Of a DNA stretch of 64,000 nt, positions 4,931-50,781 are shown in pieces; the stretch's first letter is position 1, and every line of letters starts with the position of its first letter. The position numbers were made by a program, and so were the translations under genes. This stretch comes from a virus, in IMG/VR virus record IMGVR_UViG_3300025913_000025, positions 1 through 64,000 of that record; one strand, 5' to 3'. The notes beneath the pieces were generated by a model, which was not told the DNA's origin, made no database searches, and saw only the letters and a program-made list of their open reading frames with translations.

Positions 4931-4975
4931 CGTTCGTCCCCTGCGTGCCACTCGTCACACGTGTCTTACAATCTA

Positions 4976-5004
4976 TTAATACGTCACAACAGGCGGGTTG
5001 TCCA
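4976..5004 (-). promoter_or_regulatory. Promoter candidate for the minus-strand small-gene operon
   Basis: Minus-strand TGGACA, a 17-base spacer, TATTAA. Just downstream, 4953-4960 is CGTCACAC, the reverse complement of the GTGTGACG at 1731-1738 inside the other minus-strand promoter. A second copy with one change, CGTCACAA, lies at 4982-4989 in the spacer. Confidence 0.5.
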
Positions 5005-5957: not shown

Positions 5958-5961
5958 TTGA

Positions 5962-5990
5962 TTGCCGCAAACGTACCCGCCGAGTACAAT
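5962..5990 (+). promoter_or_regulatory. Promoter of the first methyltransferase gene
   Basis: TTGCCG, a 17-base spacer and TACAAT. The -35 lies in GATTGCCGCAAACG, a sequence that recurs before other genes in the window. The transcript leader would carry CTTCCTTCC at about 6013-6021. Confidence 0.75.
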
Positions 5991-6048
5991 CCGTTCCGTG
6001 TCGCGCCAAGATCCTTCCTTCCGAGCCATTTTCCGTTCAGGAGCTCCC

Positions 6049-22454: not shown

Positions 22455-22798
22455 TCGACTGGGCGACGGTGGCCAGGTCCGGTGACAAGAGACTCGCGGT
22501 GATCGCACCGCTTGCCCGGGAATACGTGCGCGCGGTCATGAGGCTGCAACTCGTCTGCGCGCAGGAAGGACGGCGCTACCCGCGCGGCGTCGGCCCGCTT
22601 TTCCGCGGCCGGAAGCCCAACGCCGTGTTCCGGGTCGAGCTCGCCTGGGATCGACTCCGAGGTTATCTCGACCTGCTCGATCAGCGTACCGGATCGTCGA
22701 TCACGGCGCACGTCGTCGAGGACATCCGGCAGACGGTAGACTCGATGTGGCCACGCATGCGCGAGCGATTCGAACTGCCGAGCGATGCCGCAGCCTGA
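22451..22798 (+). CDS. Hypothetical helical protein upstream of the terminase
   Basis: 115 residues, ATGA overlap with the previous gene. Helical and basic (AREYVRAVMRLQLVCAQEGRR, LDLLDQRTGSSITAHVVEDI). Its place directly before the large terminase gene is typical of small terminase subunits, but no DNA-binding motif is clear, so this is only a positional hint. Confidence 0.55.
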   Translation: MIDWATVARSGDKRLAVIAPLAREYVRAVMRLQLVCAQEGRRYPRGVGPLFRGRKPNAVFRVELAWDRLRGYLDLLDQRTGSSITAHVVEDIRQTVDSMWPRMRERFELPSDAAA

Positions 22799-22809
22799 GA
22801 GGCGAGCTC

Positions 22810-26641: not shown

Positions 26642-26767
26642 TTGTTGACCGCACCGAGCGTTGGACGGTTCTTCCACACGACCATCAAGGGGAAGTTCCG
26701 AACCCGCCCGGTACCTGCGCCGACGAGGCCGTCGCCAGAACCCGAGAATCCAGAATCCGAGGAATAA
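26642..26767 (+). pseudogene. KTSC domain remnant downstream of tnpB
   Basis: Translates as LLTAPSVGRFFHTTIKGKF and a Pro-rich end to TAA. It aligns with the C-terminal part of the intact KTSC protein at 25063-25344, but has no start or N-terminal two thirds. The homology begins right where the element's right end should be. It looks like the stump of a second KTSC gene cut by the insertion or by later recombination. Confidence 0.75.
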
Positions 26768-26771
26768 TCCG

Positions 26772-29222
26772 ATGCCGCCGACCGCCAAGCTCAACGCCTC
26801 GAGAATGAAACGGACGTTGGGCCAGCGTCAGAAGTACAGGGCGGCGCCTGGAGAGGAGAAGCGGCCGGGATACTGGGGCGGGACCGGGATCCAGGCCGGA
26901 ACACTGTTTTCAGACCGCGACCGGACGCGACGGTCCCCATCCCCGCCCGAGGTCGTCGAACTCTATCGCTCGCTCGTCTACACCTGCACGCGGATCAATT
27001 ACAACGCGTTCAGCGAGCAGCAGCTCCGGCTTTACCGGACGACCAAGCGCGGACAGTCGAAGGGTCATCTCAAGAGCTGGCAAGTCGATTCCGTGCCGCG
27101 CAAGCAAATCGAATACATGCGCAAGTCCGGTCACATCGCGAATGAAATGAAGGGGGTCCAGGAGATCGAGGAGATCGTTGACCTGGACTTCCCGCTCCTC
27201 CGGGCCGTGACGGACGTCAACAAGCAATGGGACCATACCGCTCTGATGCGGTACACGTCGGCCTGTCTGGACCTGTTCGGCCGTTCCCATTGGTGGATGG
27301 AGTCTTACACCGGGGCGCGGACTGACAACGTCTGGCCGCTCCTCACTCAGTTCGTTTACCCCTGGCGCGACGGCGAGAAGTATTCGCTGATCGACTACTT
27401 CTCCTACGGAGCGATGCGACTACCCTACGACGACGTCATGGAGGTCCGCGACGTCGCCATGCGCGACCCCTACGCCCTGGGAGTCGCGCCCGCCGAGGCC
27501 GCGTTCGCGCACAGCGACCTGTTCGATATGTTCATCTCGTATGAACGGAACGTCTTCGAGCAAGGTGCCGCGCCGAAGATGCTCGTGTTCAACAAGGATC
27601 CCGAGATGCCGATGGGGCGCGTCGAGCGCGAGCGACTCCAGCGAGACATCAACTATGGGCTGGTCCGTGGCCAGCAGGGAATTGCCTGGGTCGTGGATGG
27701 CAACCTCGACGTCAAGCCGATGAGCTTCCTTCCGGAAGGCATGGCGAAGCTGGGAATCGGTGCCGAATCCCTGGCGCGGGTGGCGAACGCGTTCCTTGTC
27801 CCCGTATCGTTCCTAGACATCACCACATCGAACCGATCGACGTCCGAGAGCGACCGAAAGCTTCACGCCGAAATCTGCATCAGTCCGCGCTGCGCCCTTG
27901 TCGGGTCGGCATTCACGAAATGGACCCGGAAGCGCGGCAAGATGATCGACGAATCGCTCAAGGCACGCGGCTCGAGCGTCACCAGCAATCACAACCGCCT
28001 GCTCTGGATGTTCGATAACCCGGTTCCCGAGGACCAGGAGCGGCATCAGAAGGTGATCGATATGCAGCTCGCGCGCGGCCAGCGCACGATCAACCAGATC
28101 AATGCCGAGGAAGGACTTCCGGCCGTCGAATGGGGCAACGAACCCTGGTTTAACATGAACCTCATTCAGCCGTCCGTGGCCGAGGAACAGCGCCAGTGGT
28201 CGCGTCAGCAGCAGGAAACGAAGCTCGCTATGACTGCCGCGCAGCCAGCCGCTCCCGGCAAGCCGGGAAAGAAGCCGGGCCGGAGTGGTGGCACGGACGC
28301 GGCGGACGGGACTCCCGGGGCGGCCACGCCGGCACTTCCGAAACCGGCTCCCGATGAATACGAGGATCCCGGGCAGGAGGTCGTCATCCCGAACGCCGGC
28401 ACGAGCAAGCCGAAGGCGGGAGATGGTCACTACGCGAAGCTCTCGGCGAAGCGCGCGGCGCGAAAGCCGCATTGGGCGGATGAATGGGACCTGGCCGAGT
28501 CCCTGCTTCGCGCGGCTCTGCTCGAGATGGGCCTGGGCGCGGAGGAATCCTACGAGGACGTCGTGATGACCCCGAAGGAGCGGATCGACGCTTTGCACGT
28601 TCTCCGGATCCAGTGTGCCGACGCAATGCGCAAGATGGCCGAGCGGACGAACGCCGAACTCGAGGAGCAAGAGGAGACCATCGGCAAAGCGCTCGGCTCG
28701 AAAGCCAAGGAGGTCGTGGACCGATTCTTCAAGAGCGCACGCCGGTTCGTTCGCGCAACTGCGGTCGCGTCTGCCCTGCTCGTCTTCGGTCCGGGAGAGG
28801 CTTCCGACGCCGAGGTCAAGGCGATCGAGAAAGCACAGACGGTCCAAGAGGCCTATCTCGACGGGTTCCGACGTCGTGTGTACGATGGCGACGGCACGCT
28901 TTCGGGTCAGTTTGTGTCGAACGCCGAGATGTATGGACGGGCGGTTTGGGGAACGGGCGCCAACATGCTCCGCGACGTGGCGATTGATAAAGATGTGTTC
29001 ACTGAAGAGATGCGAGAGCACGTTGGAGACGATGTTCCGTGTGATACGTGTGTTGAGCAAGTCGATCTCGGCTGGCAACCCATCGGCACTCTCTTGTCCA
29101 TCGGGGACTCAGAATGCTGCAACGGATGTCACTGCATGTATGTGTTCCGCGACGTTGACGGTACAGAATGGACCGCAGGCCGAGGACCGCTCGAGGAGAT
29201 TGCCTTCGGCGTGACGGGATGA
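26772..29222 (+). CDS. Portal protein fused to a MuF-like minor head domain
   Basis: 816 residues from ATG 26772 (GAGGA upstream). Residues 30-480 are an HK97-type portal: a clip and stem region around VELYRSLVYTCTRINYNAFS, LPYDDVMEVRDV, and a crown with VPVSFLDITTSNRSTSESDR. A Pro/Gly/Ala-rich linker follows (about 490-580). The C-terminal 230 residues are helical and end in CDTCVEQVDLGWQPIGTL and CCNGCHCMYVFRD, the cysteine-rich end of Mu gpF-type minor head proteins. The portal forms the ring at the packaging vertex; MuF proteins sit inside the head. Fusion of the two is known but uncommon. Confidence 0.85.
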   Translation: MPPTAKLNASRMKRTLGQRQKYRAAPGEEKRPGYWGGTGIQAGTLFSDRDRTRRSPSPPEVVELYRSLVYTCTRINYNAFSEQQLRLYRTTKRGQSKGHLKSWQVDSVPRKQIEYMRKSGHIANEMKGVQEIEEIVDLDFPLLRAVTDVNKQWDHTALMRYTSACLDLFGRSHWWMESYTGARTDNVWPLLTQFVYPWRDGEKYSLIDYFSYGAMRLPYDDVMEVRDVAMRDPYALGVAPAEAAFAHSDLFDMFISYERNVFEQGAAPKMLVFNKDPEMPMGRVERERLQRDINYGLVRGQQGIAWVVDGNLDVKPMSFLPEGMAKLGIGAESLARVANAFLVPVSFLDITTSNRSTSESDRKLHAEICISPRCALVGSAFTKWTRKRGKMIDESLKARGSSVTSNHNRLLWMFDNPVPEDQERHQKVIDMQLARGQRTINQINAEEGLPAVEWGNEPWFNMNLIQPSVAEEQRQWSRQQQETKLAMTAAQPAAPGKPGKKPGRSGGTDAADGTPGAATPALPKPAPDEYEDPGQEVVIPNAGTSKPKAGDGHYAKLSAKRAARKPHWADEWDLAESLLRAALLEMGLGAEESYEDVVMTPKERIDALHVLRIQCADAMRKMAERTNAELEEQEETIGKALGSKAKEVVDRFFKSARRFVRATAVASALLVFGPGEASDAEVKAIEKAQTVQEAYLDGFRRRVYDGDGTLSGQFVSNAEMYGRAVWGTGANMLRDVAIDKDVFTEEMREHVGDDVPCDTCVEQVDLGWQPIGTLLSIGDSECCNGCHCMYVFRDVDGTEWTAGRGPLEEIAFGVTG

Positions 29223-33191: not shown

Positions 33192-35255
33192 ATGCCACAA
33201 GTTGCGGAAGTGAAAGCGAACCGCTTCAAGGAATTCTCGGCCAAGGTGCGCGTCGTCGATGCCTCGGAAGAGGCGAACGTCGATGTCGTCGCCGTCGTCA
33301 CGTGTGACTCGGTGGATGCCGATGAAGAGGTCGTTCTCCCGGGCGGAGCCGACCTGAGCCGGTACATCAAGGCACCGCGGATCCAGCTCTGTCACGCCTA
33401 CGGAAAGCCAGGCGAATACTACCCGCTCCCGGTCGGCAAGGCGCTTTGGACCAAGCGCGAAGGCCGAACCCTGATGCAAGGGATCCGGTTCGCCAAGACG
33501 GAGATGGGCCAGGAAGTCGCGGAACTGTTCCGTGACGGCATGATGAACACGTTCTCGATCGGGTTCATCTCGCTCGAGGCTTCTCCGCCGACGAAGGCCG
33601 AGATCGTGGCAAGGCCGGAGTGGAAGGACGCGAAGCTCATCCATCGCAAGTGGCAGCTCCTCGAAGTCTCCGCCGTGCCGATCCCGAGTAACGAAAACGC
33701 GATCGGTGAATGGGTCCGCAAGGGCCACCGGATCCCGAAGTTCCTCATTGTCAAAGGAGGTCGATCCGTGGCCAAGAAAAGTGGCGACCCTGTTCCCGAG
33801 CCGCATGACACAGCGACCGACAAGCCCACCGATCACGACCCCGGGCGAGAGCCACACGATTTTACCCCCGGCGATCACGTCGAGGTCGACAAAGCCATGG
33901 GCGGCGGATGCGGGAGCGTGAAGTCGGTCCACGGCGAGGGGGAGGACCTGCCCGACGATGCCGAGGACATGACGGACGGCCACCGGCCCGCGGCAAAGGT
34001 CGAGATGCACGACGCCGAGCATAAGTGTACCGGCGTGATGAAGTGCTTCGGTCGAAAAAGCATGGCCATGGTCGCGACCGAGCACAAGGCCGTGACGGAT
34101 GCCACGCTCAAGATCGGCGACAAGATCATCGTTCACTCGATGGCCGGAGGTGGATTCGGAATCATCAAGTCGATCCACAAGGGAACCGTTACTAACGTCG
34201 ATGAAGACTTTACCGACGGTAGCGAGGACCCTGCGGCGAAGGTCGCGATCATCGATGCCGATGGTCGCGATACCGGGAAGACGATCGGCGCTCTGGCGAA
34301 GCATCTTGCCCTGATCAACGACAAGTCTTACTACGGTTCCCCGTGGATGGGCGAGGAAGCGGAGAAGGGCAACGCCTACCGGATCATGGCGCAAGGCCTG
34401 ATCGACCGGCACAAGAAGATCATGCGGACGCAGAAGGCCGGGCATCTGTACGCTCGGCAGGACAAGATGGAAGCCCATTACGTCCGGCACAAGTCGGACG
34501 ATGATGACACCAAGGGCTACCACACTGCCGAACAGTGCAAGGCCATGCTCGGCGAAGCTCCGGGCTGCAAGGCCGTCACGGTGGACGTCGATCATCCGCC
34601 CGATGAAGACGCCTGGGAAATGCTCCATCCCGCGCCCCCGTCCCACGATATGTGGTTCGCTCGCTCGATCAAGGCGATGAATGAGGCGAGCGGGACTGAG
34701 GGGGGATACACGCTCGCGCCGGAGACCCGGGTCGACCACTCCGGTGAGGACGACTTCCTTGAGGAAGAGACCCCGACCTACATGCCCAAGCCGCGCGAGG
34801 TCGTTCAGTGGGAGGACCACGAAGGGATGCACGCGGGTGCCGGCCGGGTCAAGTCGATCCACATGAGCGGCAAGGCCGTTCCGGATGTGATGAACGAGTG
34901 TATCGGGACCAAGGAAGTCCCGCATGCAAGAATCAACCTCTTCAAGAAGGGGGAGGACGGCGACTACACCGAGACCGAGCATCATGTCGGTGTGAAATGC
35001 AAAATGTGCAAACGGATGCCGATCCTGAGCGTCAGTGCCAAGACGGTACAGGCACCCGTGGTTGAGCGCAAGGAAGCGCCGGCGCGGACCGAGCCGGCTC
35101 CCGAGGGGCCGACGCTCAAGCGCATCCCCAAGGTTCAGACCGAGGAGCAGTTCCAGGCGGAGATGTACCAGACGTTGAAGTCGCGAGAATCCGCCCCCGA
35201 GTTCAAGCAGAAGGCGATTGACGAAGCGGTCAGACAATACATCGGCGGGGTGTAA
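33192..35255 (+). CDS. Prohead protease with a long repeat-containing C-terminal region
   Basis: 687 residues. The first 190 are an HK97-type (S78) prohead protease: VVTCDSVDADEEVVLPGG, LCHAYGK with the likely catalytic His, and MNTFSIGFI with the likely Ser. The remaining 490 residues contain three related modules, each with a GxGxVKSIH-like turn: GGGCGSVKSVHGEG with PAAKVEMHD, GGGFGIIKSIHKGT with PAAKVAIID, and HAGAGRVKSIHMSG with PHARINLF. Spacing suggests small beta-barrels. This part may act as scaffold, since no separate scaffold gene was seen. ATG follows AGGCAGGGCCCAG. Confidence 0.8.
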   Translation: MPQVAEVKANRFKEFSAKVRVVDASEEANVDVVAVVTCDSVDADEEVVLPGGADLSRYIKAPRIQLCHAYGKPGEYYPLPVGKALWTKREGRTLMQGIRFAKTEMGQEVAELFRDGMMNTFSIGFISLEASPPTKAEIVARPEWKDAKLIHRKWQLLEVSAVPIPSNENAIGEWVRKGHRIPKFLIVKGGRSVAKKSGDPVPEPHDTATDKPTDHDPGREPHDFTPGDHVEVDKAMGGGCGSVKSVHGEGEDLPDDAEDMTDGHRPAAKVEMHDAEHKCTGVMKCFGRKSMAMVATEHKAVTDATLKIGDKIIVHSMAGGGFGIIKSIHKGTVTNVDEDFTDGSEDPAAKVAIIDADGRDTGKTIGALAKHLALINDKSYYGSPWMGEEAEKGNAYRIMAQGLIDRHKKIMRTQKAGHLYARQDKMEAHYVRHKSDDDDTKGYHTAEQCKAMLGEAPGCKAVTVDVDHPPDEDAWEMLHPAPPSHDMWFARSIKAMNEASGTEGGYTLAPETRVDHSGEDDFLEEETPTYMPKPREVVQWEDHEGMHAGAGRVKSIHMSGKAVPDVMNECIGTKEVPHARINLFKKGEDGDYTETEHHVGVKCKMCKRMPILSVSAKTVQAPVVERKEAPARTEPAPEGPTLKRIPKVQTEEQFQAEMYQTLKSRESAPEFKQKAIDEAVRQYIGGV

Positions 35256-35398
35256 CCGCCGTTCACCGATAGCAGACCTACCGAGATTTGAGATATCAGG
35301 GCGTCACCCCCGGGGAAACCTTCGAGGTTTTAGGGCGGATCGACCCCGGGGATATGCCGCCTCTTGGTTGTCACCCCATCTTTCACAAGGGGCCAACC

Positions 35399-36862
35399 TT
35401 GAAACGCAAGTACAAGTGCCTGAAGGGCTTCAAAGCGCCCAACGGGACCGTGATCTTCGAGAAGGGGACCGACACCGAGCCGCGGTTCTACGTCCTTGAG
35501 GAAGAGGACGCTCAGGAATCGATCGCCGGTGGTTATCTCGAGGCCGTCGCCGTGAGCGAGATGGAGCTCATGATGACGCGCGCCATCGAGGCCTACGAGG
35601 AGAAGCGCGCGCCCTTGACGGCCGCCAACACCGCGTCGATCGTCTCGGCGGTGTTCGAGAAGCTCTATGACAACAAGGGCCCGCTCAACGTCCGCGTGAT
35701 CACGGATGAGGCCGACAAGACGAAGGGACTCGGTGAGTTCCTCCAGTGCGTCGGAATCTACGGCGACCCGCAGGCGCCGGCGAGCCAGAAGACCTGGGCG
35801 GGCAAGACGCTCGAGGAAGTGTACAGCAAGCGGGCGGATCCCAGCTTCGCGGACCGCTACCAGAAGTCGCAGGAAGCGATGGGCATCAACCGGAAGACGG
35901 CGTTGGCCGAGTCTTCGGGCATCACGGGCGGTTACACCGTGCCGACCGAATACTCCATGGCGCTGCTCGAGATCCGGCCGGAAGACAACCTCATGGTTGG
36001 CTTCACGGACGACTACCCGATGACGGGCCGCGAGCTGAAGATGCCGGTCCTCGACCAGACGACCCCGAGCGGCGTCGTCGGCCAGACGTCTTACTTCGGC
36101 GGCGTGGTTGCCACCTGGACGGCGGAAGCCGCCACCAGGCAGGAAACCGAGCCCAAGTTCCGCGAGGCGACTCTCGTTGCGAACGAGCTCTCCGGTTACG
36201 CGCTCGCGTCCCGGAACGTGCTCTACGACAACAAGGTCGCGCTCGAGATGCGGCTCACCAAGCTCTTTGGTGGTGCCGTGTCCTGGTTCCGCGATTACGC
36301 GTACCTGAACGGCGATGGCGTCGGCAAGCCTCGCGGCATCCTTGGTGCGCCGGCAACCCTGCACGTCGACCGCGCGGTCGCGAATCAGGTGAACTACGCC
36401 GACGTGACGGCGATGTATGGCCTGCTCATGCCGCAGTCCATCCCCACCGCGTTCTGGGCGATGCAGCAGAGCGTGTTGGCCAACTTCCTCCAGATGGCCG
36501 ACAGCCAGGGCCGGTATGTCGTTCAGCCCTACTACCCGACCTACCAGGCCGGCGTGGCAGGCGGTCCGGCAACCGTCCGGCCGATCATGACGATGCTCGG
36601 CCTGCCCATCAAGACGTCGGAAAAGCTCAACACCTTGGGCTCGACCGGCGACCTGATGCTGATCGACCCGAAGCAGTATTTCACTTCCTCGCGCCAGGAG
36701 CTCGAGATCGCTGCGTCCGAGCACTACCGCTTCATCAACAACCAGATCACCTACCGGTTCATCTGGAGAGGCGATGGCGAAGCGTGGATGAACTCCTACT
36801 TCACGCTCCAGGATCAGACGACCAAGATTTCTCCCTTCGTATGTTTGGATGTGCATTCGTGA
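35399..36862 (+). CDS. Major capsid protein, HK97 fold
   Basis: 487 residues from TTG 35399 (AAGGGGCCAACC upstream). An in-frame TTG at 35288 and ATG at 35354 would lengthen it. Residues up to about 180 form a helical delta-like prodomain to be removed by the protease. The mature part starts near SSGITGGYTVPTEYSMALLE and shows the HK97 signs WTAEAATRQETEPKFREATL, ASRNVLYD and NGDGVGKPRGILGAP. It forms the icosahedral shell. A strong hairpin follows at 36915-36945. Confidence 0.9.
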   Translation: MKRKYKCLKGFKAPNGTVIFEKGTDTEPRFYVLEEEDAQESIAGGYLEAVAVSEMELMMTRAIEAYEEKRAPLTAANTASIVSAVFEKLYDNKGPLNVRVITDEADKTKGLGEFLQCVGIYGDPQAPASQKTWAGKTLEEVYSKRADPSFADRYQKSQEAMGINRKTALAESSGITGGYTVPTEYSMALLEIRPEDNLMVGFTDDYPMTGRELKMPVLDQTTPSGVVGQTSYFGGVVATWTAEAATRQETEPKFREATLVANELSGYALASRNVLYDNKVALEMRLTKLFGGAVSWFRDYAYLNGDGVGKPRGILGAPATLHVDRAVANQVNYADVTAMYGLLMPQSIPTAFWAMQQSVLANFLQMADSQGRYVVQPYYPTYQAGVAGGPATVRPIMTMLGLPIKTSEKLNTLGSTGDLMLIDPKQYFTSSRQELEIAASEHYRFINNQITYRFIWRGDGEAWMNSYFTLQDQTTKISPFVCLDVHS

Positions 36863-36979: not shown

Positions 36980-37600
36980 ATGTCGGAAACAATCGTACCG
37001 CGCGAAACCATCTTTGACGACTCGCCCGGAGAAGAATGGCGTTGGATTCCGGGATGGCCGGCTTATCAGGTTTCGGATCGCGGCCGTGTCAAAAGTTTCT
37101 GGACTCGCGAAGGTTCTCCGCGAAACGGCACGCTTCGAATGGTCGTGGGATCAGTCGGAAAGATCCTGAAACCGGCGTGCGAGCCGAAAACTGGACACTG
37201 GCATGTCACGCTTGGGAAAGGCGCTTCAGGTGGGCAGAAAACGTTCAAGAACAGCCGGCTCGTCCTGATGGCATTCGACCGCCTGCCTATTGGAAAAGAG
37301 GATGCGAGGCACCTGCACGATCCGGATCCGCGAAACTGCAATCGATCGAATCTCGCGTGGGGTTCACGGCTTGATAATTTTAAAGACTTCGAACGGCACA
37401 CGGGGATGAGACTGAACGCAAAGCTCTCGATGCAACAAATCGAGGAAATCCGATCGCGGATCGACGGAGTGCGAGGAACCCAACGGCGACTGGCAAAAGA
37501 GTTCAACGTTTCGGTTCAATTGGTGACTTTGATCAAGCAAGGAAGAACAGGCTCAGATTCAAGGAAAACGCTCAATGACGACGGATCGTATTCTCTTTAA
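36980..37600 (+). CDS. NUMOD4/HNH homing endonuclease, copy 1
   Basis: 206 residues. EEWRWIPGWPAYQVSDRGRV is a NUMOD4 DNA-binding motif. KNSRLVLMAFDR and ARHLHDPDPRNCNRSNLAWG form the HNH-type core (HLHD, N-S-NL-WGS). A C-terminal helix-turn-helix follows (TQRRLAKEFNVSVQLVTLIK). Such free-standing enzymes cut a cognate allele and spread their own gene. It stands alone between hairpins after the capsid gene. The first His of the HNH core is shifted, so activity is not certain. AGGTCGGA precedes the ATG. Confidence 0.85.
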   Translation: MSETIVPRETIFDDSPGEEWRWIPGWPAYQVSDRGRVKSFWTREGSPRNGTLRMVVGSVGKILKPACEPKTGHWHVTLGKGASGGQKTFKNSRLVLMAFDRLPIGKEDARHLHDPDPRNCNRSNLAWGSRLDNFKDFERHTGMRLNAKLSMQQIEEIRSRIDGVRGTQRRLAKEFNVSVQLVTLIKQGRTGSDSRKTLNDDGSYSL

Positions 37601-37696
37601 TCGGCGAGCCGTCAAACCGGCGTGAAATGGGCGGTGCCACGGCACCGGTCAAACGCCAATTCGCACAAGCGTCCCGTGTCGAACTATTCCAGGGTC

Positions 37697-37716
37697 GAGA
37701 ACCCGTTCGGGTTCTC
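37697..37716 (+). terminator. Hairpin after the first homing endonuclease gene
   Basis: GAGAACCC pairs with GGGTTCTC around GTTC, followed by TCT. It lies 25 bases before the next gene's ATG, so it could also affect that gene's translation. Confidence 0.5.
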
Positions 37717-37740
37717 TCTGGTTCAATCGAAGGAAACAGC

Positions 37741-38184
37741 ATGTATACTGAACAACTCAGTCAGCAATTGGCCTTCATGGGCCAGGTCATCCCCGCGACG
37801 GCGGCGACCGGCTCGAGCATGGTCACGGAGGCCATCCCGCTCGGCAACCAGCGCCGCACGCTGTTCACGCTCCAGATGGGTGGGTTCGCGACCAGCGGTG
37901 CCGCGCAAATCTTGGTCCAGGGTGCCACGGCATCCGGTGCGACCTTCACCACGATCACGTCGCTCACTTCGCCGTTCCTCACGGCATCGGGAGCGGTGCA
38001 GTCGGAGGCGACGGAGGAAAACATCGTCGCGCTCAACCTTGGGTACCAATGGTTGAAAGGCGTGGTCTCAGTGACAGGAGCCAATGTCAGCGGTATCGCA
38101 CTCAGCGTCTACGGTGGAAATTTTCGCTGGGGTCCGGGATCGCAGTATAACCGGAGTTACGTACTCTCACCGACAATTTTCTGA
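37741..38184 (+). CDS. Probable virion structural or decoration protein
   Basis: 147 residues from ATG 37741 (GAAGGAAACAGC upstream). Ser/Thr/Ala/Gly-rich strands (ILVQGATASGATFTTITSLT, WLKGVVSVTGANVSGIALSV) suggest a secreted-like beta-sandwich, as in capsid decoration proteins. Its own strong terminator and its place two genes after the capsid gene imply high expression. Not matched to a family. Confidence 0.6.
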   Translation: MYTEQLSQQLAFMGQVIPATAATGSSMVTEAIPLGNQRRTLFTLQMGGFATSGAAQILVQGATASGATFTTITSLTSPFLTASGAVQSEATEENIVALNLGYQWLKGVVSVTGANVSGIALSVYGGNFRWGPGSQYNRSYVLSPTIF

Positions 38185-38312: not shown

Positions 38313-39122
38313 ATGTCGGAATCGATTATCACGAATCAAGCCGTTCCTGTCATCAGCCAAGGGGAATTCGCGTTCGGCGATCTTCCGGAAACGGAAGAAT
38401 GGCGAGGCATCGTCGGATTCGAGGGGTACGAAGTCTCGAATCTCGGGCGTGTGCGCAGTTGGAAAGTTATCGGCGGCCATCGAAAACGATCTAGTGAGCC
38501 ACGGATTAAAACGCTCACACCAGATCCCGAAGGCTATTTGAACGTAGGGCTTTGGAAAAACGGCAAAACGATTCTAAAAGGCGTGCATAGGCTCGTTTTG
38601 ATCGCATTCGTCGGAATCCGCAGTTCCAAGATTCAATCCCGTCATATCGACGGCAACCCCGCCAACAATTTGCTGTCCAATTTAGAGTGGGGCACGGCCA
38701 AGCAAAACGCAGACGACAGGACGAGGCATGGGAGAACTCCAATGGCCTCGGTTCACTATGCGACCGAGTTCACAGAAGAGACGATTATTGAGATTCGCCG
38801 AAGACGTGCTGCCGGTGAAAGACAAATCAGTCTTGCGGCTGAGTTCGGAATCACGAGGGCTGGAATTTCAGGGATTTGCGTGGGAAGAACATGGGCATCT
38901 GTGAAAGAAGGTCTTGAGGTATCAAGAAAATCGCATAGCGAAGCGCGAAAACTCCGTGGGGAAGGAACAAAATCGTCCAAAATCACAGCGCTTCAGGCAT
39001 CAGAAATCAAAGCGAGACTTCGCAACGGCGAGAGTCACGCCTCGATCGCGTCTCGGTTTGGGGTCAGTCCATCATACGTCACTCTGATGAACAGAGGTAA
39101 ACTCTGGTCCGAGGTCGATTAA
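38313..39122 (+). CDS. NUMOD4/HNH homing endonuclease, copy 2
   Basis: 269 residues. EEWRGIVGFEGYEVSNLGRV (NUMOD4), then an HNH core KGVHRLVLIAFVG and SRHIDGNPANNLLSNLEWGT with the canonical RHIDGN and N-L-WGT. Two C-terminal helix-turn-helix repeats follow: AGERQISLAAEFGITRAGIS and GESHASIASRFGVSPSYVTL. Related to copy 1 in the same intergenic neighbourhood. GGGACTC precedes the ATG. Confidence 0.9.
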   Translation: MSESIITNQAVPVISQGEFAFGDLPETEEWRGIVGFEGYEVSNLGRVRSWKVIGGHRKRSSEPRIKTLTPDPEGYLNVGLWKNGKTILKGVHRLVLIAFVGIRSSKIQSRHIDGNPANNLLSNLEWGTAKQNADDRTRHGRTPMASVHYATEFTEETIIEIRRRRAAGERQISLAAEFGITRAGISGICVGRTWASVKEGLEVSRKSHSEARKLRGEGTKSSKITALQASEIKARLRNGESHASIASRFGVSPSYVTLMNRGKLWSEVD

Positions 39123-39134
39123 CCCGAAGGCACC

Positions 39135-40871
39135 ATGGCAAAGATACAACAGCGCGTAGTCTTCCGTGACCACGAACTCGCTCACCGCTATCTCGACGGT
39201 TTCAAAGGAATCGAGATCGGCGCAAGCGAGAACAATCCGCACAACATCGCCGGCACGATCAACGTCGACTACTCTGACGAACACACGCGATTCAAGGAGG
39301 TCGAGGTCGAAATCTGCGGGACCGCCTGCAAAGTGGATGTCGTTGCGGAAGCCGACGAGTTGCCATTTGACGATAGCAGCCAGGATTTCGTGCTTTCCAG
39401 TCACGTCTTCGAACATCTTCCCGACCCGATCAAGGCCGTCAAAGAATGGATTCGCGTGGTTCGTCCGGGCGGAATTATTTTCGCCGTCGTGGCGTTGAGC
39501 GAAGGTCCAGGGACTCACCCTGCGGATAACGGAAAGCCGATCACGGAACTCGACCATTACGCCGAAGACCATGAGCGGGGCGAGACGGTCGAGACGCATC
39601 CAATCCCCGAGGGTCACGAAAAGCGTGGACACTACCATCGCTTCAGTTACCAATCGATGAAAGCGTTCGTCAAACGATTCTTTCCGACCGAACTGAAGTA
39701 CATCGACGGAGAACCAACAGACTCCAAGGTTGGAGTTGGCCATACTCACGTCCTCCGAGTCACCAAGCCGACCCCCACCGGCTCGCCCAGGATCGACATC
39801 AAGCCCCAGCGCGTCCGCGTCTGGATCAACATGCCCGATGAAACGGGATGCACCTACTATCGGGCGGCCGCGCCGTTCCAGTTCTGCCACGAGGAGCTTT
39901 CCCAGAAAGGCATCGACCTGTACCGCGGTGGCGTCGACGGCGGCGCGATGCCGGACTCGAGCTACGACGTTTACGTTCAGCAACGGGCGCCCGATCCGAG
40001 CGCGTACACGTTCTTTCACTGGGTTCTCAAGAGCAATCGGCGCCTGATCTGGGAACTGGACGACGACTTCAACAGCATCCCGAAGTGGTCGCCGGCCTAC
40101 GAGGGGGTTCGCAAGGGCGGAAACTTCGCCGCACTGGGTTGCTACCTCGACTTCGCGCACGCGATCACGACGTCGACCCCGTTCCTCGCGGCGAAGATCG
40201 AGGCCGATTTCACGTTCACCAAGGGGAAGACGGTGGTTCTGCCCAACCTGGTGGACGTCTCGAAGTACCGGCGCGTCCTCCCGAGCCCGGGCCGGACGAA
40301 GCGGATCATCTGGACGGGGTCCGGATTCCATGCGGCCGATCTCGAGCTTCTGGTCCCGGTCGTTCAGAAGATCGTTGACGAGACGGATTGGGAATTCGTC
40401 TTCATGGGCGCGATCCCGCCCGACATCTTCAAGTTCCCCGAGCGGCGAGTCTGGAGTCTCGGAGGAGCGCAGATCAAATACTACCCGCGGCTCCTGTGCG
40501 AGCTGTCGGCCGACGTCGCGGTGATCCCGCTCACCCGCACTCTATTTGACCGGAGCAAATCCGCGATCAAATGGATGGAATGCAGCCTGGCGGGCGCGGC
40601 TGTCGTGGCGACCAAGTTCGGTCCCTACGAGGATGCGATCGAGGATGGTCAGACCGGGATTTTCATCGAGAACCCAAACGACCCCGACGAATGGATGGGC
40701 GGGATCCGGTACGCGCTCGAGCATCGGGAACGGCTCGTCGCCAACGCGATTCCCGAGGTGATGAACGGTCACTCGTGGCATTCGATGGTCAATCGGCAGC
40801 GTTGGGTGGACTTTTTCGTGGAGCAAGCGAGACTTTCCATCGAGTTTCAGAACGCGCACCCATTGCCTTGA
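39135..40871 (+). CDS. SAM methyltransferase-glycosyltransferase fusion
   Basis: 578 residues. Residues 1-220 are a class I methyltransferase: FKGIEIGASENNPHNIAGTI (SAM loop), VVAEADELPFDDSSQDFVLS and SHVFEHLPDP, then VRPGGIIFAVV. Residues 225-560 are a GT-B glycosyltransferase: GCTYYRAAAPFQFCHEEL at the acceptor side, RIIWTGSG and WEFVFMGAIPPDIF mid-domain, and KWMECSLAGAAVVATKFGPY with EDAIEDGQTGIF as the donor-sugar site. It could methylate and glycosylate virion protein or host surface sugar. It lies in the head-gene region, which favours a virion target. AAGGCACC precedes the ATG. Confidence 0.85.
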   Translation: MAKIQQRVVFRDHELAHRYLDGFKGIEIGASENNPHNIAGTINVDYSDEHTRFKEVEVEICGTACKVDVVAEADELPFDDSSQDFVLSSHVFEHLPDPIKAVKEWIRVVRPGGIIFAVVALSEGPGTHPADNGKPITELDHYAEDHERGETVETHPIPEGHEKRGHYHRFSYQSMKAFVKRFFPTELKYIDGEPTDSKVGVGHTHVLRVTKPTPTGSPRIDIKPQRVRVWINMPDETGCTYYRAAAPFQFCHEELSQKGIDLYRGGVDGGAMPDSSYDVYVQQRAPDPSAYTFFHWVLKSNRRLIWELDDDFNSIPKWSPAYEGVRKGGNFAALGCYLDFAHAITTSTPFLAAKIEADFTFTKGKTVVLPNLVDVSKYRRVLPSPGRTKRIIWTGSGFHAADLELLVPVVQKIVDETDWEFVFMGAIPPDIFKFPERRVWSLGGAQIKYYPRLLCELSADVAVIPLTRTLFDRSKSAIKWMECSLAGAAVVATKFGPYEDAIEDGQTGIFIENPNDPDEWMGGIRYALEHRERLVANAIPEVMNGHSWHSMVNRQRWVDFFVEQARLSIEFQNAHPLP

Positions 40872-41373: not shown

Positions 41374-41739
41374 ATGGCGCTCCGCTCGAGGAGGTGGGTT
41401 GACCGGAAGACCGGCCAGAGAGTGACCCGCGCTGATTTGGCGCGGTTCCTCTTTGAAGATGATTCCTGCACGCTCGGCGGGATTACCGTGCCGTCTTTGC
41501 GCCCCATGATGCTTCTGTGCCCAAAATGCAAACTTCTCGCGTTCCGAAGCGGCGAGCACGCGTTTTTTGATTCCAACAACGTCGTCTACGACTGCTACGA
41601 ATGCGGATACTTTGCCTGGGACGAATCGACCCAATCCGAGCATCCGTTGCCCGCATATTGGATCGCGGACGCGAAGTCCTGGGGCGCATACGAGGATTCC
41701 GAGGTAGGAAAAGATCATGACCGATCCCAATCGCCGTGA
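41374..41739 (+). CDS. Zinc-ribbon hypothetical protein
   Basis: 121 residues. LCPKCKLLAFRSGEHAFFDS then YDCYECGYFAWD is a four-cysteine ribbon with two CxxC knuckles. Overlaps the next gene by 23 bases. Function unknown. Confidence 0.6.
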   Translation: MALRSRRWVDRKTGQRVTRADLARFLFEDDSCTLGGITVPSLRPMMLLCPKCKLLAFRSGEHAFFDSNNVVYDCYECGYFAWDESTQSEHPLPAYWIADAKSWGAYEDSEVGKDHDRSQSP

Positions 41740-42274
41740 CTTCCTGAAGACGACGGTCGCGTTTGCGGGAATCCCTCTGATCGCTTCGCCGTCTGCGGCG
41801 GGACCGGTCATCGAACCGCCGAAGAGGCCGAATCGTTATCGACCGGCCGACGTCCAGGCGCTTCTTCCCAAGCCTGGCAAGACGAACGTCATGGCGAGGA
41901 TCCACACCGATTACCTCGATGATCAGGACCAAGTGGTCCTCATTGATGGACTGCGTCTCTGCGAATTCCACGAACTTGCAAGGGTGGTGACGCCTTCCCC
42001 GGAACTCGGCAATCATGGTTGGGAAATCCTTGGGAAATGCCTCTGGATTTCCCAGAGTGAAAAATCTCTGACGGTGGGACTCGTGCTCACAGAAGTCCCC
42101 TATTTTCTCGCATGCGAAAACCAACTTGATGTCGCGCTCGGCTTCAGATCGCACGAATCTTCACCACCGACCCCGGACGAATGCCGACGATTCGAGAACT
42201 ACGGCGTTCCCAAGGCAATTCACCGACGCTGGGAATTGCTCGAGTTGATCCTGGTCCCGATTGAGGAGGACTAG
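41717..42274 (+). CDS. Second protein with a twin-arginine signal
   Basis: 185 residues. DPNRRDFLKTTVAFAGIPLI then ASPSAAG is a complete Tat signal. The mature part begins in a basic Pro-rich stretch and has a strand-rich C-terminal half (SLTVGLVLTEVPYFLA). Not similar to the other Tat-type protein beyond the signal. TAG stop. Probably acts outside the cytoplasm. Confidence 0.7.
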   Translation: MTDPNRRDFLKTTVAFAGIPLIASPSAAGPVIEPPKRPNRYRPADVQALLPKPGKTNVMARIHTDYLDDQDQVVLIDGLRLCEFHELARVVTPSPELGNHGWEILGKCLWISQSEKSLTVGLVLTEVPYFLACENQLDVALGFRSHESSPPTPDECRRFENYGVPKAIHRRWELLELILVPIEED

Positions 42275-42279
42275 AAGCG

Positions 42280-42678
42280 ATGGCGAGCTTCCTCTGTTTC
42301 ATCCTGTTCGTGGCCTTCGTGCTCACGTTCTACATCGCCTGCTGGCTGTTCGGCGAGCGCGGTCGTTTGATGACGAAGCTCGATGTCGAGCGAACATGGC
42401 CGACAGCACTTCAACAGGTCATCGATGTTCCGATGGCAGGCGGTCCCGCCGATGGCGCGACTCAAAAGATCAATCTCCTGGCGAGCGTCATAAACCTGCC
42501 GATTGTCAGGGTCCGCAGCATGATGGAGCAGCCGATCTGCACGATCTGGACAGCCGAATCCGCGCCGGCGGTTGAGATTCCGGAGGGCGTGCAGGTCGAG
42601 CATGGCCACGCGGTTTACGAGCGCCATGTCGAATACCGTTTCAAAGAACTGAAGGGAGCATCGATTGAAAGCAAGTGA
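42280..42678 (+). CDS. Small membrane-anchored protein
   Basis: 132 residues. N-terminal span FLCFILFVAFVLTFYIACWL with a cytosolic or periplasmic domain behind it. It lies 5 bases after the Tat gene and overlaps the GroES gene by 14 bases. Unrecognised. Confidence 0.6.
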   Translation: MASFLCFILFVAFVLTFYIACWLFGERGRLMTKLDVERTWPTALQQVIDVPMAGGPADGATQKINLLASVINLPIVRVRSMMEQPICTIWTAESAPAVEIPEGVQVEHGHAVYERHVEYRFKELKGASIESK

Positions 42679-42979
42679 ACTGCTTTGCCCGATCGAACCG
42701 TTGACGAACGTCGTGGTCGTCAAGCGGATGCAAGAAGAGACGATCACCGCAGGCGGGATCATCATCCCCGAGGTCTCCCGCGAGAAGCCCGCCAAGGGAG
42801 TCGTGATCGCGAGCGGCCCGGGCACGTTGCTCCCGACCGGTCACATCGAGCCGACCGGCGTTGAGTACGGCGATACCGTCCTCTTCGGCAAGTACAGCGG
42901 CACCGAGATCGAGGTCTTCGGCGAGCGCCTCCTCTTGATCCGCGCCGAGCACCTCCTTGCCACGGAATCGGAGGACTGA
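42665..42979 (+). CDS. groES: GroES-type co-chaperonin
   Basis: 104 residues, TTG start after GAAGGGAGCATCGA. The cpn10 fold is clear: IEPLTNVVVVKRMQEETITA, mobile loop GGIIIPEVSREKP, GVVIASGPG, GDTVLFGKYSGTEIEVFGER and LLLIRAEHLLA. It caps the host GroEL ring during folding. Phage T4 gp31 serves capsid folding in this way. No groEL is nearby, so it should work with host GroEL, probably for the capsid protein. Confidence 0.92.
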   Translation: MKASELLCPIEPLTNVVVVKRMQEETITAGGIIIPEVSREKPAKGVVIASGPGTLLPTGHIEPTGVEYGDTVLFGKYSGTEIEVFGERLLLIRAEHLLATESED

Positions 42980-45804: not shown

Positions 45805-48800
45805 ATGTCGACGCCGACAATTTGGCAAAGCCCGATCAATGGTGCGCAGGCCGCGCTCGCCGCGAAGTATACGGTCGGGCTCGGATCAATGGTGATCACG
45901 AAGGGATACGGCGACGTGATCCGGCAGAAGCTCCTCGATCTGGGCTTGCCGTCGATCTCGCCGTCAGCGCCGCTCGCGTACACGATCACGTCGAAGACTC
46001 AGCCCTCGACGCTTGCGACCTACGAAGCGATCTATCAGGCAACTGGACTCACTGATGATACTCTGAGCGGAGTCAGCACGATCGAGGGTTCGATCGACCA
46101 GGCGTTCTCGATCGGCAGCAAGTTCGCGGTGAATCTGACTGCCGGCCAGATCGCGTTGATACAGACAGCGATCAACGCCGTCGAGACAGGCAAAGCGCCC
46201 CTCATCGCGCCCACGTTCACTGGCCAGGTTTCTGTTCAAGCGCCGACCGCGTCGACCCTCCTTCAGAGGTGGTTGGACAGCAACGGTTCCATGGTCGCCA
46301 CGATTGACAACGCCGGGTCCAATCTCGGAACGGCAGAACTCACGATCCTCGGTATCGCCAACGCCGGGATTCAGGACCTGGGTGGCCAGGTCGTCAACGT
46401 CAAGAATCCCGCCTATGGCTGCACTGGCAATGGCACGACGGATGACGCGCCCGCGCTCCGGCTGGCAATCACCAAAGCGGCGGCAATCGGCGGGACCGTG
46501 TTTTTCCCGAATGGAACGTTTCTGCTCAAGAGCCAGATCACGATTCCCAGTAACGTGACATTTCAAGGCGCCGGTCCCGGCAGCGTGATTCAGGGCGATG
46601 GGACATTTCAGGTCCTATTCGACGTCACCGCAGTCAGTAACGTCCAGTTCGTTTCGCTGAAACTGAACGGCGGAGCCAGCGTCGGCATTTACATCGATAC
46701 CTCGTCACACATCAGCGTAACGAATTGCGAGATCGATAACTTCACCCGCGTTCGCGACACGCTCTACACGTCGGGAATCCTGCTCAACGCGGCAAGCAAC
46801 GTCCTGATTCGCGGCAATAAATTCTCGGGATGCGGGTACAACGCCGGACCGGGAACGGCCGCGAACGGGACCATCGTTTTCAAGGACAACGCAACGACTG
46901 ACTGCACGAACGTCACGGTTTCCGAGAACGCGATTTTCAACGCCGGACTCTTCGCGATTTGCGGATTCGATATCTCGGAATGCAAGATTCTCGATAACTA
47001 TATAGATCAAGGAAACATCGGCAATACAGACTACAATAACGGATATGGCATCCTTGCATACGACGCGCAACACGCATTGCCGGGTCGGAACTTCGTCAAG
47101 AACAACCTGATCCGAGGCAACTTCGTCACTACCTGTTATGGGACCGGGATTTACTGCGTCGTCGGAATCGACAACACGATCGCGCACAACATCGTTGTCA
47201 ACAGCGCTCTGACGATGGATTCGTCCAGCCTGCGGCAAGGCGGAATCGTCGCCAATGAGTCCGTGCGGACCATCATCGACGGCAACCACGCGATCAACAT
47301 CGGCGGCGCCCAGCTCAATCTCGTGTCGGGGATCGCGAGCCTCGTGGGCACGGGTGACATGGTGACGAATAACACGATCGATAATGTTCCCACATCTGGA
47401 GGCGACGGATTCTATTGCGGGGGCACCGGCGAGGTAGTCACCATTACGGTCGGCGGCACGGTGGCCGATAACACAATCACAAATTGCGGTCAACATGGCT
47501 TGCATTTTGATATCACTCCCGACAAGACCGGGCTCATCATCGAAGGGAACAGCGTCACGTCGGTCGCTGGAGTCGGGATGCGATGCGGCCAGTTGATCCG
47601 ATGCCTGATCAAAGGGAACTCGATCACCGACTTTGGCGACGGCCAACAAGGGTTTCTGAGTGCCGGCACAGGCAGCGGCACCAATCGATGTGTGTTCGAG
47701 GGTAACATCGTCGTCACGACCGTCTCGAATTCTGGCCGGGCGTTCTCGTTCGCGAACGCGCGAAACCAGTTTATCAACAACGTGGTCATCGGCGCGGGGA
47801 TCCTTGCGACCGGGTTCTACGACACCACCAACCTGTCCTCTGAGCCGAACATCTATTCCGGGAACCGGTGCATTGTCGGGGTGACGAATCCGTTCAGTTT
47901 TCTCGGTCAGGTGAGCTGCCTGAACGGAAACTACAACACGGGGGCCGGCGCGCCGGTCACGACTCCGTTCATTCTCGGCGAGGATTACTACGACTCCACC
48001 AACGAAGTCTGGTACACGTCCAAGGGCACGTCCTCAGCGGCGGACTGGGTTGCTTACGTTTCGGCGATCGCGCCCACGCTCACCGGGCAGGTCATCGTGC
48101 AGGCCGCGGCGGCATCGACCTTGCTCCAGCAATGGAACGACAATGCTGGAAACCCGATTGCGGCGATCAATAATTCCGGCGCGGTCGGAGTCGGCACCGC
48201 ACAGCTCGGCATCGGCACCGCGAACCCCTTGCGTCCGCTTCATATCATGGCGGCGGACATCGGCGCGGGAACGTACATCGCGCTCGACAACACCGATACG
48301 ACCCACAATAACAACGGATCGATTATCGCGTGGACAACGACCACAACCGGCGTTGGAGGAGCCGCGTTTAAAGGCTATGCGTCAATCACGGGAAAGATCC
48401 TCACGCACGATCAACCGACGCTGGCCAGCACTCTTACCTATCTCACGGCGAACGGTTCCGGTGCATTCAATACATACTTGATGGACCAGTTCGGCGCTTT
48501 CACGATTCCGGGGAACGTCTACGCGACGGTGCGCGACAATGGAGGCGCCGATTTCGACGTTAAGCATCCCACCTACGGATGCAAATGCGATGCGATGAGC
48601 GCCATTGCAACGGGCATCACGCTCAACTCACCTACGATCACGATGACCGTGCCGACCTCGGGAGATGTCGGCACGGCAATCTCGGTTCCCGGCGCGGGCA
48701 CTGCGGGCGCTACGCTGGCGACGACGATAAGTGCTGTAAATGGCACCCTGATTACGCTCGCGAGTCCCATCGTTACGACCGTCAGGACCGCGATCATTAC

Positions 48801-50781
48801 CTACGGCGCCAGCTCTTTGACAGCCGTGGCAACCAATGTAGTGGCCGGATCGACTCTGAGCGTGGTGGTGCCAACTTCGGCCGACGCCGGCAAGACGATT
48901 TCGATTCCCGGCGCTGGCACGGCGGGCGCCGCACTGGTCACCACGATCAGCACTGTATCGGGCACCACGATCACGCTTGCCGCGAATTGCCTTGCGACCA
49001 TCGCCTCGGCCACTGCGCTGTACGGCACCGACGACACGACGCACTTCCGCAACGCGATCACGGCGGCGGCGGCGGTAAGCGGAACCGTGCTCGTGCCAAC
49101 CGGCAACATGCTCATCGCGTCTCTGATCACCTTGCCGTCCAACATCGCGGTCATGGGCACCGGGCCGGGATCAATGATCACGGGAACCAGCGGACTCGAG
49201 GTGCTGATCTCGCTGAACGGCTCGACAGGCGTACGGATACGCAACCTCACGCTCAACGGCGGTGCCAGCGTGGGAATCTTCGCGACGGCGTGCAGCAACT
49301 TCCTGATCGATAACTGCGTCATCAATAATTTCAACCGCGTCCGCGATACGCTCTATACCTCGGGAATCCTGCTCAACGCAGCAACGATCGGCTGGATCCA
49401 GAAGTGCCAGTTCGCGAACAATGGCTACGGCGGCGCTGGCGCGATCACCAATGGCGCGATCGTCTTCAAGGACAACCCGACGACCGATTGCACATTCATC
49501 AATGTAGTGTTCAATGAAATCGTCGGAGCGGGCCTCTACGGAATCTGCGGCTTCGACGTGTCCGACTGCAAGTTCATTTCAAACACGATCAATCAGGGCA
49601 ACGTTGGGACCACCGACTACAACAACGGTTACGGAATCCTGGTCTACGACGCGCAGCACGCTTCAGGACGCAATTATGTGTTTCGGAACGTCGTCGCGTT
49701 CAACAACGTCTCGAACTGCTACGGGACGGGCATCTATCTCGTCGTCGGTATCGACAACATCATCGCCCACAACATCGTGAAGAGCGTCGCCTTGACGATG
49801 GATTCGTCGAGCCTGCGGCAAGGCGGAATCATCGCCAACGAATCCGTCAATACGATTATCGATGCGAATGAAGTCGATACCGTGGGCGGCGCACAGGTTA
49901 ACCAGGTTGCCGGGATCGCGTCACTGATCGGCACGAATGACGAGATCACCAATAACCGGATCGCAAACGTCACGGCAACAGCCGGAGACGGAATCAACGT
50001 GGGCGGATCGGGTGAAGTCGTCACGTCCACCGTGGGCGGCAGGTACAGCGGAAACTCGATCAAGACCGTTGGCCGATACGGAATGAACTTCGACACGTCC
50101 ACGGCTAAGGTCGATCTCGTCGTCGAATCAAACTACGTGCAGAGTTGCGGCTCGATCGGCTACTTTATCAACAACGTTCAATACAGTCAGTTCAACCACA
50201 ACAAGGTACGTGACTTCGGTGCTGGGTCTCAGGGCTTCTTGATCGGGTCGTCCTCCTCGACGACCAACGTCTCGCTAAACGGCTGCGAGGCCGAGATTAC
50301 GAGCACGAACTCGGGACGTGGGTTTCAGATCGCAACCGGTCCCAACACGGTCAATAGTTGCGTTGCGTCCGGCATCGGCGCGGCGCTCAGCGTGGGCTTC
50401 CTCGACCAATCGAACACGACACCGCCTGTCGTTTGGACGGGCTATAGCTACACGCGCGGAACGGTCACGACGCCGTTCAGTCGATCCGGTCAGCAATCAT
50501 GCCTAGACAGCATGTACAATTCGGGCGCCGGCGCGCCCGCGACCACTCCCAGAGTCGTCGGCGAGAAGTATCTCGACACAACCAATAAGCAATTCTACAT
50601 TGCCGTTGGCACGAGCGCCGCGACGGACTGGGCACCGTCCGACACTCCGCTTCTCACGGGTACCGCGGCTCCGGCAACGACGCCGTTCCGGCTCAACCTG
50701 ATGTTTCTCGACACGACCAACAAGAAGGCCTACGTGTCCATGGGAGTGGCCTCGTCGGCAGACTGGGTGTTACTCAATTGA
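45805..50781 (+). CDS. Giant tail spike/fibre with duplicated beta-helix domains
   Basis: 1658 residues. A short N-terminal part (1-190) is followed by a right-handed beta-helix of the pectate-lyase-like type from YGCTGNGTTDDAPALRLAIT to about residue 720. A linker leads to a second copy from about 925 to 1560. The copies share stretches such as ALTMDSSSLRQGGI with NESV and VRDTLYTSGILLNAA. Before copy 2, a segment of about 58 residues (PGAGTAGATLATTIS-type) is doubled. Both copies end in a GAPxTTPxxxGExYxDTTN-type motif. Such spikes bind and often cleave host polysaccharide. It sits between the connector and head-closure genes. Confidence 0.85.
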   Translation: MSTPTIWQSPINGAQAALAAKYTVGLGSMVITKGYGDVIRQKLLDLGLPSISPSAPLAYTITSKTQPSTLATYEAIYQATGLTDDTLSGVSTIEGSIDQAFSIGSKFAVNLTAGQIALIQTAINAVETGKAPLIAPTFTGQVSVQAPTASTLLQRWLDSNGSMVATIDNAGSNLGTAELTILGIANAGIQDLGGQVVNVKNPAYGCTGNGTTDDAPALRLAITKAAAIGGTVFFPNGTFLLKSQITIPSNVTFQGAGPGSVIQGDGTFQVLFDVTAVSNVQFVSLKLNGGASVGIYIDTSSHISVTNCEIDNFTRVRDTLYTSGILLNAASNVLIRGNKFSGCGYNAGPGTAANGTIVFKDNATTDCTNVTVSENAIFNAGLFAICGFDISECKILDNYIDQGNIGNTDYNNGYGILAYDAQHALPGRNFVKNNLIRGNFVTTCYGTGIYCVVGIDNTIAHNIVVNSALTMDSSSLRQGGIVANESVRTIIDGNHAINIGGAQLNLVSGIASLVGTGDMVTNNTIDNVPTSGGDGFYCGGTGEVVTITVGGTVADNTITNCGQHGLHFDITPDKTGLIIEGNSVTSVAGVGMRCGQLIRCLIKGNSITDFGDGQQGFLSAGTGSGTNRCVFEGNIVVTTVSNSGRAFSFANARNQFINNVVIGAGILATGFYDTTNLSSEPNIYSGNRCIVGVTNPFSFLGQVSCLNGNYNTGAGAPVTTPFILGEDYYDSTNEVWYTSKGTSSAADWVAYVSAIAPTLTGQVIVQAAAASTLLQQWNDNAGNPIAAINNSGAVGVGTAQLGIGTANPLRPLHIMAADIGAGTYIALDNTDTTHNNNGSIIAWTTTTTGVGGAAFKGYASITGKILTHDQPTLASTLTYLTANGSGAFNTYLMDQFGAFTIPGNVYATVRDNGGADFDVKHPTYGCKCDAMSAIATGITLNSPTITMTVPTSGDVGTAISVPGAGTAGATLATTISAVNGTLITLASPIVTTVRTAIITYGASSLTAVATNVVAGSTLSVVVPTSADAGKTISIPGAGTAGAALVTTISTVSGTTITLAANCLATIASATALYGTDDTTHFRNAITAAAAVSGTVLVPTGNMLIASLITLPSNIAVMGTGPGSMITGTSGLEVLISLNGSTGVRIRNLTLNGGASVGIFATACSNFLIDNCVINNFNRVRDTLYTSGILLNAATIGWIQKCQFANNGYGGAGAITNGAIVFKDNPTTDCTFINVVFNEIVGAGLYGICGFDVSDCKFISNTINQGNVGTTDYNNGYGILVYDAQHASGRNYVFRNVVAFNNVSNCYGTGIYLVVGIDNIIAHNIVKSVALTMDSSSLRQGGIIANESVNTIIDANEVDTVGGAQVNQVAGIASLIGTNDEITNNRIANVTATAGDGINVGGSGEVVTSTVGGRYSGNSIKTVGRYGMNFDTSTAKVDLVVESNYVQSCGSIGYFINNVQYSQFNHNKVRDFGAGSQGFLIGSSSSTTNVSLNGCEAEITSTNSGRGFQIATGPNTVNSCVASGIGAALSVGFLDQSNTTPPVVWTGYSYTRGTVTTPFSRSGQQSCLDSMYNSGAGAPATTPRVVGEKYLDTTNKQFYIAVGTSAATDWAPSDTPLLTGTAAPATTPFRLNLMFLDTTNKKAYVSMGVASSADWVLLN

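Follow-up and report, generated by a model that had tools for sequence, protein, structure and literature searches.

The DNA analyzed here (the window) comprises bases 1–64000 of a virus record of 107,419 bases. At 39135–40871 on the plus strand it contains one uninterrupted open reading frame (ORF) of 578 aa, with an ATG start and a ribosome-binding-like GAAGG motif directly 5′ of it. The ORF, together with Pfam and PHROGs matches, identifies the product as a fused methyltransferase-glycosyltransferase (MT-GT), with a class I methyltransferase (MT) at the N terminus and a GT-B glycosyltransferase (GT) at the C terminus. The gene had been predicted to lie in the head gene region, and this placement was borne out by the prohead protease/scaffold gene (33192–35255, plus strand; phrog_80, 4.8e-7) and the major capsid protein (MCP) gene (35288–36862, plus strand; phrog_10, 2.5e-29) located upstream; terminase (22747–24375) and portal (26661–29222) genes are also found upstream. 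The MCP is a possible substrate of the fusion enzyme. The MCP gene is followed by an HNH endonuclease gene, a mobile gene in the head cluster (36980–37600, plus strand; phrog_59, 2.6e-23), a small Ser/Thr-rich (20%) gene (37627–38184, plus strand), and another HNH endonuclease gene directly 5′ of the fusion (38313–39122, plus strand; phrog_59, 8.8e-52). The small gene, flanked by these two HNH genes of the same family, matched no family in Pfam or PHROGs; it may encode a head decoration protein and is a further candidate substrate.

Several other genes of the record were characterized. A phage GroES co-chaperonin gene sits inside the head gene cluster, downstream of the fusion (42665–42979; phrog_3188, 1.3e-21, with PDB matches). 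A few genes downstream of the fusion, 41717–42274 encodes a protein of 185 aa whose start is Tat-like (RRDFLKTT); it is homologous to part of the protease encoded at 33192–35255 (1.2e-10) and represents a duplicated protease-type domain. A 1658-aa tailspike-like protein (45805–50781) contains a long internal duplication, with copies ~2586 bases apart, and a 489-aa protein on the minus strand (61414–62883) has a type IV prepilin-like N terminus (pilin match; Pfam N_methyl). Approximately 40 kb from the MCP gene, a 306-aa protein (L002:12213–13133, record positions 76213–77133) has a piecewise match to the MCP family (1.1e-14); it probably corresponds to the Phage_capsid match of the Pfam survey and gives the record a second capsid-like gene, possibly a degenerate one. 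That survey, performed on the called genes of the whole record at an E value of 1e-4, identified DnaB, two N6/N4 DNA methylases, CsrA, a PAPS reductase domain, and HAD proteins, among others; genes lacking a Pfam match could conceal a base-hypermodification gene. Among the called genes, Pfam recognized no nucleotide-sugar pathway gene, no base-hypermodification gene (hydroxymethylase, thymidylate-synthase-like, or other), and no membrane flippase or membrane-bound GT family. Since a nucleotide-sugar pathway was not found in the record, the enzyme would use host nucleotide-sugars.

Domain Architecture of the Fusion Protein

The original prediction that a single chain contains both enzymes as complete domains held in Pfam, PHROGs, AlphaFold models, and Foldseek. 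Residues 1–222 (39135–39800, plus strand) form a class I SAM methyltransferase domain according to Pfam, an alignment of 17 relatives, the model, and Foldseek. Methyltransf_11 matched residues 43–116 (5.9e-14) with 52.9 bits, compared to a curated cut-off of 21.2. The alignment revealed a motif I-like EIGAS (residues 27–31), an acidic VD (44–45), SSHVFEH (88–94), and RVVRPGG (107–113), with G29, V44, and D45 invariant in the 17 relatives. Motif I has the short EIGxS form rather than GxGxG; the SAM-binding motif I and the acidic residue following strand 2 are nevertheless both present, and the model and Foldseek indicate a Rossmann-like fold. The first AlphaFold model was built on GT rows, with just two rows covering the MT, and its MT half was poor; a mixed MT and GT alignment misplaced MT rows onto the GT, so the MT was modeled separately. 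Modeled alone with the 17-row alignment, it showed the class I arrangement with a mean pLDDT of 88.8. Foldseek searches with this model matched many solved class I MTs, including AtmM, which is listed as a D-glucose O-methyltransferase and appeared near the top of the match lists, and RebM, an enzyme that acts on a sugar.

Residues 225–578 (39807–40868, plus strand) form a GT-B (GT4-like) glycosyltransferase domain, as judged by Pfam, PHROGs, alignment, model, and Foldseek. Glyco_trans_1_4 matched residues 389–529 (1.1e-8, above the curated cut-off) and the glycosyltransferase family phrog_7162 matched residues 231–529 (1.8e-26). In the AlphaFold model, most of the GT half exceeds pLDDT 90 and two Rossmann-like halves are seen; Foldseek matches to the GT half include the solved GT-B/GT4 enzymes methylmannose polysaccharide mannosyltransferase, PglA, MshA, and BshA. 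The GT motifs are DDD (residues 309–311) and FDRSKSAIKWME (residues 471–482). By inspection, the canonical EX7E of retaining GT4 enzymes is absent from the latter: E482 is the second Glu, and S474 occupies the site eight positions earlier. The phrog_7162-type family has FxxSKSxxKxxE in place of EX7E, and the S474 deviation is a family trait. Because the first Glu is missing, the enzyme is named GT4-like rather than GT4, and with these canonical residues altered, the donor and mechanism cannot be read from the sequence. The structural matches are not specific enough to point to a substrate.

The end of the MT and the linker (residues 196–226, HVLRVTKPT..GSPR.D; 39720–39812, plus strand) are conserved in the closest relative described below. 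The fusion protein contains no transmembrane segment (highest 19-residue hydropathy, 1.34) and is predicted by hydropathy to be soluble.

Conservation of the Fusion and Related Gene Arrangements

A single-protein query of viral and genome contigs returned no relative, and tblastn of phage and plasmid records gave none covering 80% of the fusion protein; relatives were retrieved only by profile queries. A search for fused homologues had been proposed in the original prediction, and a profile scan retrieved one. It is encoded by L096, a related 7.2-kb phage contig, in a 593-aa ORF (4951–6732) with the same MT-GT order and 52% identity to the window protein over its full length; apart from L096 and its second copy (L180), no further fusion of the same MT and GT types was found in 202 loci searched with both profiles. 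The fusion cannot be explained by an assembly artefact because L096 keeps it whole. The two halves are similarly conserved (54% and 51% identity), and the MT end and linker reach 65%, above the whole-protein value. Nucleotide differences between the window and L096 peak at third codon positions (0.65 and 0.53 in the two halves, compared to 0.30 and 0.31 at second positions). Both phages share the gene order protease, MCP, HNH, small gene, MT-GT, and next gene, with neighbor identities of 48–50% (protease), 72% (MCP), 46% (HNH), 56% (small gene), and 44% (following gene). L096 possesses only the first of the two HNH genes that flank the small gene, one fewer than the window.

The same two activities also occur as separate neighboring genes. 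In L189, 2 bp separate an MT gene (4968–5564) from the GT gene downstream of it (5567–6709), which is the order seen in the fusion; the two genes are homologous to the matching window halves (9e-21 and 1.6e-22), and the GT belongs to phrog_7162 (1.2e-50). The L189 pair adjoins DNA-metabolism-looking genes rather than head genes, and this counts against a head-protein target. L181 has the order MCP, gap, GT, MT, with a phrog_7162 GT and an MT that is 50% identical to the window MT over residues 5–147. More distant MTs lie between the MCP and GT genes in L030/L137, L172, and L052. In L175, which encodes a distant relative of the window MCP, a Pfam-confirmed MT is located downstream of the MCP and, as we read its neighbors, is flanked by GT2 genes on both sides. 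The Pontimonas phage phiPsal1 record has MCP, a group I GT, an MT on the opposite strand, a GT2, and a neck protein, and in record MW202801 the MCP is followed by GT, MT, NodB, and GT genes. A split MT/GT gene pair is likely the ancestral state of the fusion.

Other MT types and architectures are also found near this GT. Methyltransf_13/14-type genes were identified by Pfam near the same GT in three loci, where full Methyltransf_13/23/14 sugar C-methyltransferase-like genes are located beside it or nearby (L158:7045–8265, L155:1077–2351, and L047:1200–2468); enzymes of this type are known to C-methylate nucleotide-sugars. In three further loci (L190:4926–6473, L192:4896–6464, and L193:4920–6575), a related MT is fused to a different C-terminal domain. 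The L190 gene is directly 3′ of the MCP gene (phrog_1357) and is a second, separate MT fusion in the slot behind the MCP. The C termini of these three proteins are possibly GT-B-like, with weak matches to Glyco_transf_9/28, and these matches were too weak to confirm a GT9 identity. N-terminal GT extensions in L015, L030, L055, L097, and others were considered as additional fusions, and several proved to be overlapping ORFs in GC-rich DNA. The GT ORFs ending near 6954 in L127, L138, L145, L146, and L154 were rejected as MT fusions since their N-terminal domain differs; this conserved domain of ~200 aa (YADGDWGRPLAEHLNALDRIG..., GGNYWWATA) gave no clear Pfam match.

The genomic setting of the GT family was surveyed in 110 nonredundant phage loci carrying a phrog_7162-type GT, with the neighborhood defined as 6 kb. 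An MCP gene was found within this distance in 46 of the 110 loci, nearly always upstream and on the same strand, and some head gene in 56. Approximately half of the loci have no recognized head gene within 6 kb, which counts against a head protein as the target. An MT was detected with our own profile in 40/110 loci, an upper bound because the profile is impure (one of 10 checked matches, L086:3204–3968, had no Pfam MT match, whereas the matches in L158, L155, and L047 belonged to the Methyltransf_13/14 type); MT and MCP were both present in 19/110. Where the MCP is closely related to that of L030, the GT occurs just behind it in some loci and is absent in others, indicating that the GT is an optional insert in this position. 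MTs were present in the GT-bearing loci L196 and L202/L203 and in none of the GT-free loci with enough sequence, of which there were two, a sample too small to assess enrichment.

Discussion

Phage virion-glycosylation modules (Che8, Corndog, and Myrna) have a GT gene within or next to the head or tail genes. The fusion gene likewise lies within a head gene cluster, and its position suggests a head protein as the target. On balance, the fusion protein is probably a soluble bifunctional enzyme of such a module, presumably expressed late, that methylates a sugar placed on a head protein. With a host nucleotide-sugar as donor, the GT-B half would transfer a sugar to the MCP or a decoration protein, or would lengthen a pre-existing glycan. 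The SAM-dependent N-terminal half would then O-methylate the added sugar, probably as a cap. Fusion in one chain would couple sugar transfer to methylation on one target and, since it ties both activities together, suggests the same product for both. The original prediction proposed linked modification of one target and named virion proteins, DNA, and host surface glycans as candidates. Conservation and gene context support the linkage and the virion protein; DNA or host surface glycans are less probable targets given that Pfam recognized no hypermodification genes and that the protein lacks a transmembrane segment. The breadth of the MT family, whose solved relatives use many substrates, counts against the capsid-sugar assignment.

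As a concept, linked glycosylation and methylation of capsids is already known, and the closest tested parallels are A064R, the Corndog MT and GT genes, and WsaE. In the chlorovirus PBCV-1, A064R is a GT-GT-MT fusion that builds a sugar on the glycan of the MCP and whose MT 2-O-methylates the rhamnose at the glycan terminus (PMC7019647). A064R resembles the window protein in uniting GT and MT in one viral chain with a capsid-glycan role, a likeness by description that carries no evidence of kinship; it differs in having two GT domains with the MT last and in belonging to an algal virus, whereas the window protein has one GT and places the MT first. The cluster O mycobacteriophage Corndog encodes an O-methyltransferase (gp35) and glycosyltransferases (gp36–38) between its portal and protease genes, for which the authors proposed capsid modification (PMC4351075); Che8 gp110 and Corndog gp38 are described elsewhere (PMC12363180, citing Freeman 2023) as being essential if the capsid is to be glycosylated. 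Corndog is alike in gene content, since its head cluster also contains MT and GT genes, but these genes are separate, include more GTs, and lie between portal and protease. GT and MT genes of Rhodococcus phages have likewise been read as virion glycosylation genes (PMC13313380). Outside viruses, WsaE from Geobacillus stearothermophilus has an N-terminal MT fused to GT modules, and its methylation caps the S-layer glycoprotein glycan (PMC2943079). It shares the MT-first arrangement and methyl cap by description but is bacterial, carries two rhamnosyltransferase modules, and modifies a glycan that is still lipid-linked and is moved to protein afterwards.

The GTs from LR756511, Zuko (gp5), Atuin (gp165), L189, and L181 share the phrog_7162-type GT-B domain by profile or alignment but are stand-alone proteins, with the MT encoded by a neighboring gene in L189 and L181. 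In BFVD, two proteins from uncultured Caudovirales (A0A6J5SUQ0 and A0A6J5M7M7) combine a named MT with a GT-B-like part, but their MT is FkbM-type, by database name only. L190, L192, and L193 are also MT fusions from tailed phages but have a different C terminus with only weak GT-B matches. The earlier suggestion that linked modification of one target by both domains would be new in a phage therefore holds only in part, considering A064R, the mycobacteriophage MT and GT gene pairs near capsid genes, and the FkbM-MT/GT tailed-phage proteins in BFVD. The fused GT4-type form was not found for tailed phages in the literature searched. What is new is the conserved one-chain MT-GT in tailed phages, the split pair as its likely ancestor, and the repeated occurrence of this cassette behind the MCP.

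Alternatively, the enzyme could modify the surface glycans of the host with a methylated sugar, which would change the receptor and prevent superinfection or adsorption to debris. Outside phages, the MT finds its best full match in a Brachyspira plasmid gene that has rhamnose and glycosyltransferase genes nearby, indicating that MTs of this type take part in surface polysaccharide pathways, and the GT4 relatives PglA, PimA, and TarM use surface glycans or their precursors. Known phage serotype-conversion systems, however, use membrane flippases and membrane GTs. Neither was recognized in the record, the fusion protein is soluble by hydropathy, and its gene lies within a head cluster and belongs to a GT family that recurs beside MCP genes, making a host-glycan target unlikely. 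It is less probable still that the MT half methylates protein rather than sugar, such as a side chain or terminus of a head protein, with the two halves modifying different sites of one protein. The closest PDB sequence match of the MT is LahSB, annotated as a C-terminal methyltransferase of peptide biosynthesis, but it is one among many unrelated enzymes matched, the sugar-acting AtmM is also near the top, and the known fusions A064R and WsaE both methylate sugar.

Glycosylation of hypermodified phage DNA by the GT half, with the MT half completing the modification, is decidedly improbable. Phage GTs acting on DNA are known (PMC12619734), as is pentose on phage DNA (PMC12838424), and one weak structural neighbor of the GT half, at rank 37, is annotated as a DNA alpha-glucosyltransferase. 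Against this, the Pfam survey found only the two N6/N4 DNA methylases and no base-hypermodification gene, and the fusion gene is in the head region, away from replication genes. An inactive domain serving only as a scaffold, as the noncanonical motif I (EIGAS) and GT4 motifs might hint, is very improbable because both deviations are common to relatives and the two halves have evolved at similar rates with a third-position bias.

The favored interpretation, methylation of a sugar on a head protein, can tentatively be extended to an evolutionary one. A lone soluble enzyme that places and methyl-caps a capsid sugar might be a bacteriophage counterpart of A064R that arose by fusion of an MT-GT pair, itself a mobile cassette found repeatedly behind the MCP in unrelated phages, with at least one separate MT fusion (the L190 type) in the same slot. 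To our knowledge, few tailed phages have experimentally shown virion glycosylation. In dozens of uncultured phages, the phrog_7162-type GT gene neighbors capsid genes, and a methyltransferase is often present as well. A single protein allows capsid sugar transfer and methylation to be assayed together. Sugars with a methyl cap could plausibly shield the virion from binding proteins of the host or the environment.
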